Assembly: GCF_000317515.1 (NCBI RefSeq)
Contig: NC_019738.1
Location: 2,816,001-2,880,000, forward strand
DNA: 64,000 nucleotides
Source of the DNA: Allocoleopsis franciscana PCC 7113
GTDB taxonomy: Bacteria > Cyanobacteriota > Cyanobacteriia > Cyanobacteriales > Coleofasciculaceae
Reading direction: 5' to 3'
The notes under the pieces were generated by a model, which saw only the letters and a program-made list of their open reading frames with translations, had not been told where the DNA came from and did no database searches. A program made the translations under genes and the position numbers. Positions 49,090-53,403 of the stretch are shown here, piece by piece. Each line of letters opens with the position of its first letter. Position 1 is the first letter of the stretch.

Positions 49090-50355
49090 ATGCAAAACTC
49101 GAAAATAGTATCCAAACAGAAACATATTGTTCTAACTTCTCATCCAGGTGGTTTAGCGTCAAAGCCGTTAAGCGTTCACTGGGGAGAGAGTGAACCCAGC
49201 AAACGAGGCCCTATTATTGGCACATTGACCAACCCAGCTCACCGCAATGTGATCGGGACTCACTCCGGTTCTTATTCGGTCTATCGGGCTTTAGCGGTCG
49301 CCAGTGGCGCTCTCCAAGCCAGCCACCGCGCTGATTTGACGAATACCTCTCCTGTTGTTGCCATTGGGCCTCATCCCAGTTGGGCTGATGCCAATAAAAT
49401 TGTCGCTCTCGATCCCTTTGGCGCGATGGTGGGTGAAGCTTACGCCGATTTGTACAAGCAGGGATACGACATTCGACCCACGATCGCCATCACTCAGGCT
49501 CATATTAATATGCCAGAGTTACAGGATGCGATCGCCAAAGGACGTTTGCTCGTTGATGGTCGAATTGTCAAAAGTGGTGGCAGTTTAGTTGTTACGAAAA
49601 TAGCTATTGACCCTGTATGGTATCTGCCGGGACTGGCTAAGCGCCTCAAGGTTGGGGAAAGTGACTTACGTCGTGCCCTATTTCAACAGACGGGTGGGAT
49701 GTATCCAGAATTAGTCACCCGCCCCGATTTACAAGTCTTCTTACCCCCGATTGGCGGCATCACCGTTTATCTGCTAGGTGATGTGGCGGCGATTACAGAA
49801 CCCAACCGCAAGCTGGCTGTGCGAGTCCATGACGAATGCAACGGCTCAGATGTGTTTGGTTCCGATATTTGCACCTGCCGTCCTTATCTCGTGCATGGTC
49901 TAGAGGTCTGTGTTCAGACGGCACAAGAGGGGGGTGCTGGTATCTTAGTGTACTTCCGTAAGGAAGGTCGAGCCTTGGGTGAGGTGACGAAATTCCTCGT
50001 CTACAATGCCCGTAAGCGTCAGGAAGGAGGCGATCGCGCCGATGCCTACTTCAGTCGCACAGAATGTGTGGCAGGCGTTCAGGATATGCGGTTTCAAGAG
50101 CTGATGCCCGATGTGCTGCATTGGTTGGGCATTACCCAAATTGACCGCTTTGTCTCCATGAGCGATATGAAATACAATGCGATCGTCAATTCTGGCATTA
50201 AAGTCATCAATCGCATTGCCATTCCAGAAGAATTGATTCCGGCTGATGCACAGGTGGAAATTGCTGCCAAGCAAGCGGCGGGTTACTACACGGAAGGAAG
50301 CGCACCTGATGCAGTCACTCTGACTCAAATTAAAGGACGCAATTTAGTTAGTTAA
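49090..50355 (+). CDS. urc1: GTP cyclohydrolase II-like protein of uracil catabolism (Urc1)
   Basis: The 421-residue protein is RibA-like in its C-terminal half: zinc ligands as C-x10-C-x-C in ECNGSDVFGSDICTC, and YFRKEGRALGEV where RibA has its QEGRG loop. The N-terminal half (HIVLTSHPGGLASKPLSVHWG, SGSYSVYRALAVASGAL) is not found in riboflavin-pathway RibA and fits the Urc1 family of the URC pyrimidine degradation pathway. Start ATG 49090 is preferred; the frame is open back to 48862. The next genes are urc4 and upp, which supports the pathway call. Confidence 0.85.
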   Translation: MQNSKIVSKQKHIVLTSHPGGLASKPLSVHWGESEPSKRGPIIGTLTNPAHRNVIGTHSGSYSVYRALAVASGALQASHRADLTNTSPVVAIGPHPSWADANKIVALDPFGAMVGEAYADLYKQGYDIRPTIAITQAHINMPELQDAIAKGRLLVDGRIVKSGGSLVVTKIAIDPVWYLPGLAKRLKVGESDLRRALFQQTGGMYPELVTRPDLQVFLPPIGGITVYLLGDVAAITEPNRKLAVRVHDECNGSDVFGSDICTCRPYLVHGLEVCVQTAQEGGAGILVYFRKEGRALGEVTKFLVYNARKRQEGGDRADAYFSRTECVAGVQDMRFQELMPDVLHWLGITQIDRFVSMSDMKYNAIVNSGIKVINRIAIPEELIPADAQVEIAAKQAAGYYTEGSAPDAVTLTQIKGRNLVS

Positions 50356-50593
50356 ACGGCTCCAGTATGAAGGATGAAAAAAGGCTGAAGTGTAAAAGAT
50401 GTAATGAACACGCACAAGCCGTTGGCTGAGCAAGAGTTCAACTTTAGCCTCGGATCACAAAAGACTGCTCTAATCTGCCTCTTGTTGTTCTCAGGCAGCC
50501 AGTCATTCCACACTTCATCCATCAAACTTCATCCTTCATACTTTCTTTTGTTGCTCATGGGGTGGCAATACCCCCTACCCAAAGGAAACGGTT

Positions 50594-51889
50594 TTGATTA
50601 ATGATCAACAGCTAGCAGACTGCTCTCAGGAGCAGCTTTTGGCGATCGCTTACTTGAGGACGCCTGCTGCCATTCGAGAACGCTGCGATCGCCTCTTTCA
50701 TTTAGCCTGTACTGACCAATTACACTACTTTCGCTGTAATCTAACCCAGCTCGACCCGGTAGCCCATTATGTGATTGAGGTCATGCGTGATGAATACCCG
50801 GATTTAAATATTCCCTTTCATAGTCGTTGGCGACATTTTGAGGTTGGCAACGTCCCGCGTCTGGCGGAATTAGAGCAACATTTGGCAGGACTTACCCCCC
50901 TGGAAAAGGCACAAGCCAAATTTGACCTAGCCATGATCAGCGTCTTGCTGGATGCTGGGGCGGGTTCCGAGTGGCAATACGGCGAACAGGAAACCGGACT
51001 CGTTTTTCGTCGTTCTGAAGGCTTAGCTGTAGCCAGTTTTCGCCTGTTCTGCCAAGGCGCATTTTCCAGTAACCCCCAATTTCCCCTGCAAGCAGATGCC
51101 CAAGGACTACAAAACTTCACGGCGGCTCAACTCGCTCAGGGATTTCAGGTGAGTTCGACCAATCCGTTGCTGGGTTTAGAAGGTCGAGTTGAGCTGCTCC
51201 AGCGACTCGGTCAGTCGCTACACAGTTTACCTCAGTTGTTTGGCACAGAAAATCCACGTCCTGGAAATTTGGTCAATTACTTGCTCCAAGGGTTGAAGGT
51301 TGAAACTTCAACCCAAACCAACCTGCAATCTCCAATCCCTTTACCTGCCAGTACCGTATTTAGTGCTGTGTTGGAGGGACTGGGAAATATTTGGCCTGGA
51401 CGACTGACTATTGCAGGCATTAATTTAGGCGATGTTTGGATTCATCCTGCCCTCACAGGAGACAATCCTACCGCTCAATATGTGCCGTTTCATAAACTCT
51501 CCCAGTGGTTAACCTACTCCTTGCTAGAACCCTTACAGGAACTCGGTGTAGAGATTACGGGGTTAGATGAGATGACCGGCTTACCCGAATATCGGAATGG
51601 GGGTTTGTGCTTAGATTTAGGGTTACTAGAAGTTAAACACGCTTCTGTTGTCCAAGAGCGTCATTTACCAGAGTCTGAGGTGATTGTTGAATGGCGAGCA
51701 CTGACAGTTAGTTTATTAGACCGAATTGCCGACACCATCCGGCAACAACTGCATCTAACTGCTACCCAATTGCCCTTAGTGAAAGTTCTACAAGGAGGCA
51801 CTTGGACAGCAGGACGGCGAATTGCTGCCCAATTGAGGGAAGGCGGCGTTCCTCCCATTCAGATCGAGAGCGATGGCACCGTGTTTTAG
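50594..51889 (+). CDS. urc4: Uracil catabolism protein Urc4 (DUF1688)
   Basis: The 431-residue DUF1688 protein is the family of yeast URC4. Visible parts are LRTPAAIRERCDRLFHLA, VIEVMRDEYPDLNIPFHSRWRHFE, the DAGAGSEWQYGE motif, SEGLAVASF and LDLGLLEVK. The start is a TTG at 50594 with AAGGA about 9 bases before. Its biochemical step in uracil breakdown is not established. It lies between urc1 and upp. Confidence 0.88.
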   Translation: MINDQQLADCSQEQLLAIAYLRTPAAIRERCDRLFHLACTDQLHYFRCNLTQLDPVAHYVIEVMRDEYPDLNIPFHSRWRHFEVGNVPRLAELEQHLAGLTPLEKAQAKFDLAMISVLLDAGAGSEWQYGEQETGLVFRRSEGLAVASFRLFCQGAFSSNPQFPLQADAQGLQNFTAAQLAQGFQVSSTNPLLGLEGRVELLQRLGQSLHSLPQLFGTENPRPGNLVNYLLQGLKVETSTQTNLQSPIPLPASTVFSAVLEGLGNIWPGRLTIAGINLGDVWIHPALTGDNPTAQYVPFHKLSQWLTYSLLEPLQELGVEITGLDEMTGLPEYRNGGLCLDLGLLEVKHASVVQERHLPESEVIVEWRALTVSLLDRIADTIRQQLHLTATQLPLVKVLQGGTWTAGRRIAAQLREGGVPPIQIESDGTVF

Positions 51890-51949
51890 ATATTGTTGCT
51901 TGCTCGTTGTGTGTTCTTACCTAACCACTAACCTTTATACAACTAACAA

Positions 51950-52585
51950 ATGACCGCTCAAGTTACGGTAATTGATCACCCTTTTGTACAGCATAAATTG
52001 ACGTTGATGCGTCAATTTGACACCAGTACCGCTAAATTTCGCCAACTGATGAAAGAGGTTGGGATGTTATTAGCCTATGAGGTAACACGGGATTTACCTC
52101 TCAAGTATGAACCGATCAAAACGCCTATTGCCCCGATGAATGCGCCCATGCTGGCATCCGAAAAGAAAATGGTGGTTGTCTCTATCATGCGGGCAGGGCA
52201 GGGGCTATTGGACGGTATTTTGGAACTGATGCCTTCAGCCCGCGTGGGTCATATTGGTTTGTATCGTGACCCCAGTACTTATGTTGCCATTGAGTATTAT
52301 TTGAAACTCCCCCATGATGTTGAGCATCGAGATATCTTGGTGGTTGACCCGATGCTCGCGACTGGCAATTCAGCGATCGCCGCTGTTGACCGAATTAAGG
52401 AATTAGGTCCGGTATCGATTAAGTTTTTGTGCTTATTGGCGGCACCGGAGGGAATGAAGCACTTCCACGAGCATCATCCGGATGTGCCGATTTATACAGC
52501 GGCGGTTGATGAAAAGTTAGATGAGCATGGCTATATTGTGCCCGGTCTTGGGGATGCAGGCGATCGCTTGTATGGCACCAAGTGA
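51950..52585 (+). CDS. upp: Uracil phosphoribosyltransferase
   Basis: Upp converts uracil and PRPP to UMP. The 211-residue protein has the PRPP-binding motif [23 protein letters not shown], and [13 protein letters not shown] at the C terminus. It is full length. It follows urc4 by 60 bases. In the URC pathway a uracil phosphoribosyltransferase (URC6) is also required, so here it may serve in degradation as well as salvage. Confidence 0.95.
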
Positions 52586-52740: not shown

Positions 52741-53403
52741 TCAGCCTTGCATCAAAATTCCCAATAAAATCTGCATCAACGCCTCCAAGTCAGTAGGAAC
52801 CCGATACAGCATTAAATCTTGGGTCACTACCCGATTCTGACGGTGAAAACTACCAAACTGCCAAATATCCCCAGTGGTTACAGCACCATACAAGATAGAC
52901 TCATCTGACTCTACCCAACTATCCAGAGCAATTAACTCAGCGGCTAACTGCGTAAATCCCCGTGTTAAGTCTGCCTGTTTAGCCTCTACCACTAGGAGAC
53001 AGTGGGGTGACTGGAGATAATAGTCTAACTCTCCTCTGAGGTATTGGTTCACCTCTATGGGGTACTCAATATTGACGTTTGCCTCGGCCATTTTCGCGAC
53101 TTCTAGTAAAATAGGGGCGATCAGGACTTCCCGTCGTGCGGCTTCACTGGTTAAGCTAACGCGAGCGATTACCTACGGTACCGCCCAAAGGGCGATCGCA
53201 TCCTCGATACGCTGGCGTAAATCGGGAAGTCGGGTAAGCTCTATTGAAGACGCGATCGGTAAATTGAGCTTTGCTTTGGTCAATGTTGCCCCTAACTCCC
53301 GCAGTATATCGGCTGGAGCAAACTTCATCAGGAAGTAGCTGCGGAACGTATAAGATTCATTGGGTTTGAGGATTGCAGGACGCTGCGGTCGCTCAGTCAT
53401 CAC
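52741..53403 (-). pseudogene. gene split by a repeat-borne stop codon
   Basis: Two frames, 53403-53173 and 53091-52741, lie in the same reading frame. Between them is a TAG at 53175-53173, and the frame after it (VIARVSLTSEAARREVLIAP) joins smoothly to the second part. The stop lies in a short repeat-like insertion with GGGCGGTACCGTAGG next to GCGATCGC. Removing it would give a protein of about 200 residues with LVVEAKQADLTRGFTQLAAELIAL, like a conserved cyanobacterial restriction-endonuclease-like family. N terminus MTERPQRPAILKPNESYTF. Either inactive or making two pieces. Confidence 0.75.

Follow-up and report, generated by a model that had tools for sequence, protein, structure and literature searches.

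A urc1-urc4-upp cluster in Allocoleopsis franciscana PCC 7113 very probably specifies the core of URC uracil catabolism, and its DUF1688 protein resembles Qng1 N-glycosylases in predicted structure

We analyzed a window of 64,000 nucleotides from the 7.97-Mb genome (9 contigs) of Allocoleopsis franciscana PCC 7113. Three genes stand in a row on one strand, with a repeat-bounded spacer between the first two:

49090 to 50355, + strand: urc1 (urcA), ATG start, 421 amino acids; PF12471, PF00925 and NF005536; RibA-like, putative UTP cyclohydrolase
50364 to 50542, no strand assigned: spacer stretch between urc1 and urc4, with a perfect 15-nt inverted repeat at both ends, AGTATGAAGGATGAA / TTCATCCTTCATACT
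50594 to 51889, + strand: urc4, TTG start, 431 amino acids; PF07958 (DUF1688); predicted N-ribosidase acting on phosphorylated ribosylurea
51950 to 52585, + strand: upp, ATG start, 211 amino acids; TIGR01091; uracil phosphoribosyltransferase, the equivalent of URC6/urg2

The initial annotation had recognized a RibA-like protein, a DUF1688 protein and Upp in a row, and all three are indeed present on the + strand at the coordinates it gave. In the urc1 product, a complete PF12471 (GTP_CH_N) domain scores 283 bits and the PF00925 GTP cyclohydrolase II domain only weakly, at 55 bits; the urc4 product covers the whole PF07958 profile (538 bits), and the upp product scores 269 bits against TIGR01091, for which the cut-off is 208. 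An AAAGGA motif can be read at 50581-50586, ahead of the urc4 TTG. Neither a uracil permease nor a regulator is present within the cluster. The earlier observation that no further riboflavin gene lies nearby also holds among the 24 other window proteins scanned, a subset of the ORFs. The AGTATGAAGGATGAA arm of the spacer occurs in 5 copies in the window (≤2 mismatches) against 0.2 expected, and short pieces of the repeat recur elsewhere in the genome; the stretch from 50364 to 50542 is probably a repeat remnant rather than a component of the URC system. Downstream of upp, on the minus strand within 52741-53380, a 116-amino-acid ORF seems to be the tail of a longer frame with one in-frame stop and is probably part of a broken gene.

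Comparison with solved structures gives an indication of what Urc1 does. It matches PDB entries 7ej3 and 7eev over its full length with an E value of 1e-185, is 65% identical to 7ej3 over 407 residues, and is identical to these proteins in the core motifs; we found no difference bearing on mechanism. Residues C250, C261, C263, Y305, D332 and R334 of Urc1 are invariant in 25 homologues, and we take them to correspond to the zinc cysteines, Tyr105, Asp126 and Arg128 of RibA (E. coli numbering). Urc1 thus shares with RibA and RibBA the C-terminal domain that carries the zinc and catalytic residues, but it has the extra PF12471 domain and scores below the cut-offs of the RibA models (59.8 versus 148 bits for NF001591; 51.6 versus 205.85 bits for TIGR00505). 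The original description of a UTP cyclohydrolase reportedly appeared in ACS Catal in 2021. In later papers, the enzyme UrcA is described as hydrolyzing UTP in two steps (PMC9499338) and is cited within the URC pathway (PMC12507026). Going by these papers, 7ej3 and 7eev are evidently the published UrcA.

The evidence therefore points to Urc1 being a UTP cyclohydrolase despite its NCBI name, which derives from a score of 755 bits against NF005536 (PRK07198, named GTP cyclohydrolase II). It likewise points to a systematic misannotation in the NF005536-based naming of Urc1 homologues, and a bacterial "GTP cyclohydrolase II" adjoining DUF1688 should be read as a UTP cyclohydrolase. The homologues WP_271138386.1 and WP_035673382.1, for example, carry the RefSeq name "GTP cyclohydrolase II". 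The initial annotation had called the reaction steps of the pathway unsettled. With the UTP cyclohydrolase of 2021, this no longer applies to Urc1, the ring-opening enzyme, which has been solved, whereas it still describes the DUF1688 step.

Among the routes of uracil degradation, URC is one of the less well understood, and its DUF1688 gene is found in fungi as well as in many bacteria. In Lachancea kluyveri, URC1, URC4 and URC6 are required for uracil breakdown, and URC4 is placed at the conversion of ribosylurea to urea (PMC7530994). In Schizosaccharomyces pombe, urg1, urg2 and urg3 lie together in a cluster and respond to uracil by induction (PMC2174524). The same three protein families as in L. 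kluyveri URC and S. pombe urg1-urg3-urg2 are encoded here. Unlike the yeasts, this genome has urease rather than urea amidolyase, arranges the genes in the order urc1-urc4-upp on one strand, and has no 3-hydroxypropionate enzyme linked to them. A cyanobacterial set is less unusual than the initial annotation supposed: the gene order is widespread, DUF1688 proteins are already named "URC4/urg3 family protein" in RefSeq, and the S. pombe triad is known (PMC2174524). The cluster itself belongs to a known pathway, and what is new in our analysis is a concrete proposed mechanism for DUF1688.

We assessed the association of urc1 with urc4 across 386 genomes of the phylum. A DUF1688 match was found in 33 of these, with an intact gene in 30 and broken copies in G039, G334 and G354; those 30 genomes are also the ones with an intact or nearly intact PF12471. 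Eight of the 30 (G011, G116, G129, G177, G213, G215, G332 and G360) carry urc1 away from urc4, so the pairing is not a matter of mere linkage. Fisher's exact test gives approximately 2e-45 for this co-occurrence, uncorrected for relatedness. Fragments of PF12471 were also seen in five genomes without DUF1688 (G125, G167, G278, G352 and G376). These fragments and the broken DUF1688 genes look like decayed remnants, which suggests repeated loss of the pathway in cyanobacteria.

Gene order was compared at 80 loci kept from named genomes of Cyanobacteria, Myxococcota, Pseudomonadota and others. At 71 of these loci urc1 lies ≤7 kb from urc4, all three genes are present at 58, and 57 have the order urc1-urc4-upp on one strand. 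Outside Cyanobacteria (20 loci), urc1 is found at 19 and all three genes at 17. Plasmids of Pseudoroseomonas, Azospirillum and Gordonia carry the genes in the same order, tightly packed or overlapping, annotated as GTP cyclohydrolase II, URC4/urg3 family protein and upp. Since this order recurs in distant phyla, the arrangement is not due to chance. Cyanobacterial Urc4 proteins form one group apart from those of 20 other bacteria (tree support 96/94), and we therefore see no sign of recent transfer into this lineage; a search of viral contigs for Urc4 found none. In GC-rich loci, the long ORFs antisense to urc1 were dismissed as artefacts.

Further relevant genes lie elsewhere in the genome. 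A search for urease or urea amidolyase, proposed in the initial annotation, found urease alpha (1069 bits, G000:C1:3186124). The genome also encodes an MMSDH-type aldehyde dehydrogenase (557 bits), and neither gene is linked to the urc cluster. A second upp (G000:C1:6427643-6428266) means that the upp in the window could be dedicated to the cluster. A URC1-type protein, a DUF1688 protein, a linked Upp and a urea-degrading enzyme, the members of the URC gene set, are thus all present. Among the 30 sampled cyanobacteria with an intact urc1-urc4 pair, every one has a urea-degrading system, which is urease in 29. Urease co-occurrence carries little weight by itself because the enzyme is common in photosynthetic members of the phylum and scores above cut-off in 208 of the 386 genomes. 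The exception, G338, has no urease and instead encodes a full urea carboxylase (1873 bits) adjoining an allophanate hydrolase, the same solution as in yeast; among these co-occurrences, only this replacement is telling.

We then considered the DUF1688 step, for which we found no mechanism in the literature searched. Searches of the PDB with the Urc4 sequence and with an Urc4 profile gave no credible chain; PF07958 was the sole Pfam family reported at E ≤0.001, and PF10343 (DUF2419) did not match. A structure model built with 53 homologues has a pLDDT of 93.3 and a pTM of 0.92. With this model, Foldseek returned 11 PDB matches at E <0.001, all of them DUF2419/Qng1 proteins (best E 5e-9). VIA-align aligned the model with Qng1 with a Z score of 27.5 and an rmsd of 2.9 Å over 311 of 319 residues at 18% identity, and the next matches were the helix-hairpin-helix DNA glycosylases AGOG, OGG1 and endonuclease III, with Z from 8 to 10.6. 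In line with this, hhalign of Urc4 against four DUF2419 proteins gave E 4.1e-7 and a probability of 93% over 299 columns (21% identity), whereas the same four proteins against Urc1, as a negative control, gave E 0.5 and a probability of 0.1%. Given the absence of a PDB match by sequence and of a PF10343 match, the link to Qng1 rests on the predicted structure and this one four-sequence profile comparison.

The alignments also suggest candidate active-site residues. In hhalign, K301 of Urc4 is paired with the Lys of a KRAQ motif, and E332 with the Asp in LTAFADYK, Glu here replacing Asp; by spacing in this sequence-profile alignment, they appear to correspond to Lys199 and Asp231 of Qng1, the residues mutated in PDB entries 7u5a and 7ulc. 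The motif LT...[DE]Y[KR]......LGLL is common to both families, and 53 Urc4 sequences show no variation at K301, E332, Y333, R334 and numerous further polar residues. Compared with the queuosine-5'-monophosphate N-glycosylase Qng1 (7uk3, 7u91, 7ulc), Urc4 shares the predicted fold and appears to keep a Lys and an acidic residue at the two aligned positions, but it is approximately 100 residues longer, and its proposed leaving group is urea rather than queuine. The original Qng1 study is said to have appeared in NAR in 2023.

Since Urc4 would have the Qng1 fold and yeast URC4 is placed at the ribosylurea step, Urc4 may be an N-ribosidase of ribosylurea, probably of its 5'-phosphate. On the strength of the structure model, we consider it fairly probable that Urc4/DUF1688 represents a diverged lineage within the Qng1 (DUF2419) nucleotide N-glycosylase superfamily, which has the helix-hairpin-helix DNA glycosylase fold, and that Urc4 splits ribosylurea 5'-phosphate into urea and ribose 5-phosphate. 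This would complete the URC pathway, and the ribose phosphate could go back to PRPP. If true, this would give DUF1688 a specific reaction, substrate form and set of active-site residues, checkable by one enzyme assay. We did not find the Urc4-Qng1 link in the open literature searched, and we claim no priority.

A complete route can be proposed from these assignments. Upp would join uracil to PRPP to form UMP, which housekeeping kinases would presumably convert to UTP. Urc1, as a zinc cyclohydrolase, would hydrolyze UTP twice, as published for its homologue. Judging from the chemistry of the ring and from ribosylurea as a known intermediate, this step would free C4-C5-C6 as malonate semialdehyde and leave urea on the ribose phosphate. 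Because the RibA-type Arg is kept in Urc1, pyrophosphate could be released as in RibA, and the product would then be ribosylurea 5'-monophosphate. Urc4 would then act on ribosylurea, probably in its 5'-phosphate form, and cut the N-glycosidic bond to yield urea and ribose phosphate, and urease, or urea carboxylase with allophanate hydrolase, would release ammonia from the urea. In some bacteria the malonate semialdehyde would probably be converted to acetyl-CoA by an MMSDH-type dehydrogenase, not to 3-hydroxypropionate as in yeast.

Homology, gene order conserved across phyla, the strict pairing of the two urc genes, a RibBA encoded elsewhere, the second upp and the urea-degrading systems together support the URC reading put forward in the initial annotation, and we conclude that urc1-urc4-upp very probably encodes the core of this pathway. 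That urc1 is instead a second riboflavin GTP cyclohydrolase II, with unrelated salvage genes as neighbours, could draw on the name of the NF005536 model and on the retained RibA-type catalytic residues. Set against these are the strict pairing of urc1 with DUF1688, the evident UTP cyclohydrolase identity of its nearest solved relative, scores far under the RibA cut-off (60 versus 148 bits), and a canonical bifunctional RibBA elsewhere in the genome (1008 bits in a profile search), so that urc1 is not needed for riboflavin. We regard this explanation as highly improbable and reject a role as second RibA on the RibA scores and the separate RibBA; the initial annotation's concern, that the genome might lack another RibA, is excluded by that RibBA. 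The cluster might alternatively serve mainly for pyrimidine overflow disposal or regulated salvage rather than nitrogen supply, as the photosynthetic host has other nitrogen routes and S. pombe without urg1 grows normally with and without uracil (PMC2174524). We consider this unlikely; the chemistry gives urea, and a urea-degrading system is present in all 30 hosts.

Two further alternatives concern the part played by Urc4 within the pathway. Its substrate could be free ribosylurea, dephosphorylated beforehand by an unlinked phosphatase, as ribosylurea itself is the named yeast intermediate whose breakdown is assigned to URC4 (PMC7530994). This version seems somewhat doubtful to us: the primary substrate of the structural relative Qng1 is described as queuosine-5'-monophosphate (PMC11592518), and no phosphatase was seen recurring beside the cluster when the neighbours of 20 non-cyanobacterial loci were inspected by eye. 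Urc4 could also have kept the fold as an accessory or regulatory protein while another enzyme frees urea; a shared fold is no proof of a shared reaction, and Asp231 of Qng1 is replaced by Glu332. The invariant polar residues of Urc4 and the requirement for yeast URC4, placed at the ribosylurea step (PMC7530994), argue against such a role, which we judge quite unlikely. N-ribosidase activity on ribosylurea 5'-phosphate thus remains our preferred reading of Urc4.

Neighbouring genes at other urc loci hint at additional steps. In six loci from myxobacteria or Bdellovibrio-like bacteria (L130, L134, L135, L137, L138 and L151), the gene directly 5' of urc1 encodes an MMSDH-type aldehyde dehydrogenase; two of these loci also have a uridine kinase directly after upp. 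As malonate semialdehyde is the expected C3 fragment, MMSDH could make acetyl-CoA from it, and the upstream gene is likely an added step that uses this fragment. In cyanobacteria MMSDH is unlinked, and it was not above cut-off in 2 of the 5 URC genomes tested. A small deaminase-family protein is encoded beside urc4 in L143 (8357-8815) and near the cluster in L150 (2825-3427). Its only close NCBIfam match at the limit used, TadA, falls below cut-off, so that a cytosine deaminase supplying uracil to the pathway is only a guess. ABC transporter genes occur near urc in Nostocales, on the opposite strand and at varying distance, and offer a lead only. The Azospirillum cluster has BMP/ABC transporter genes and an amidohydrolase gene after upp.
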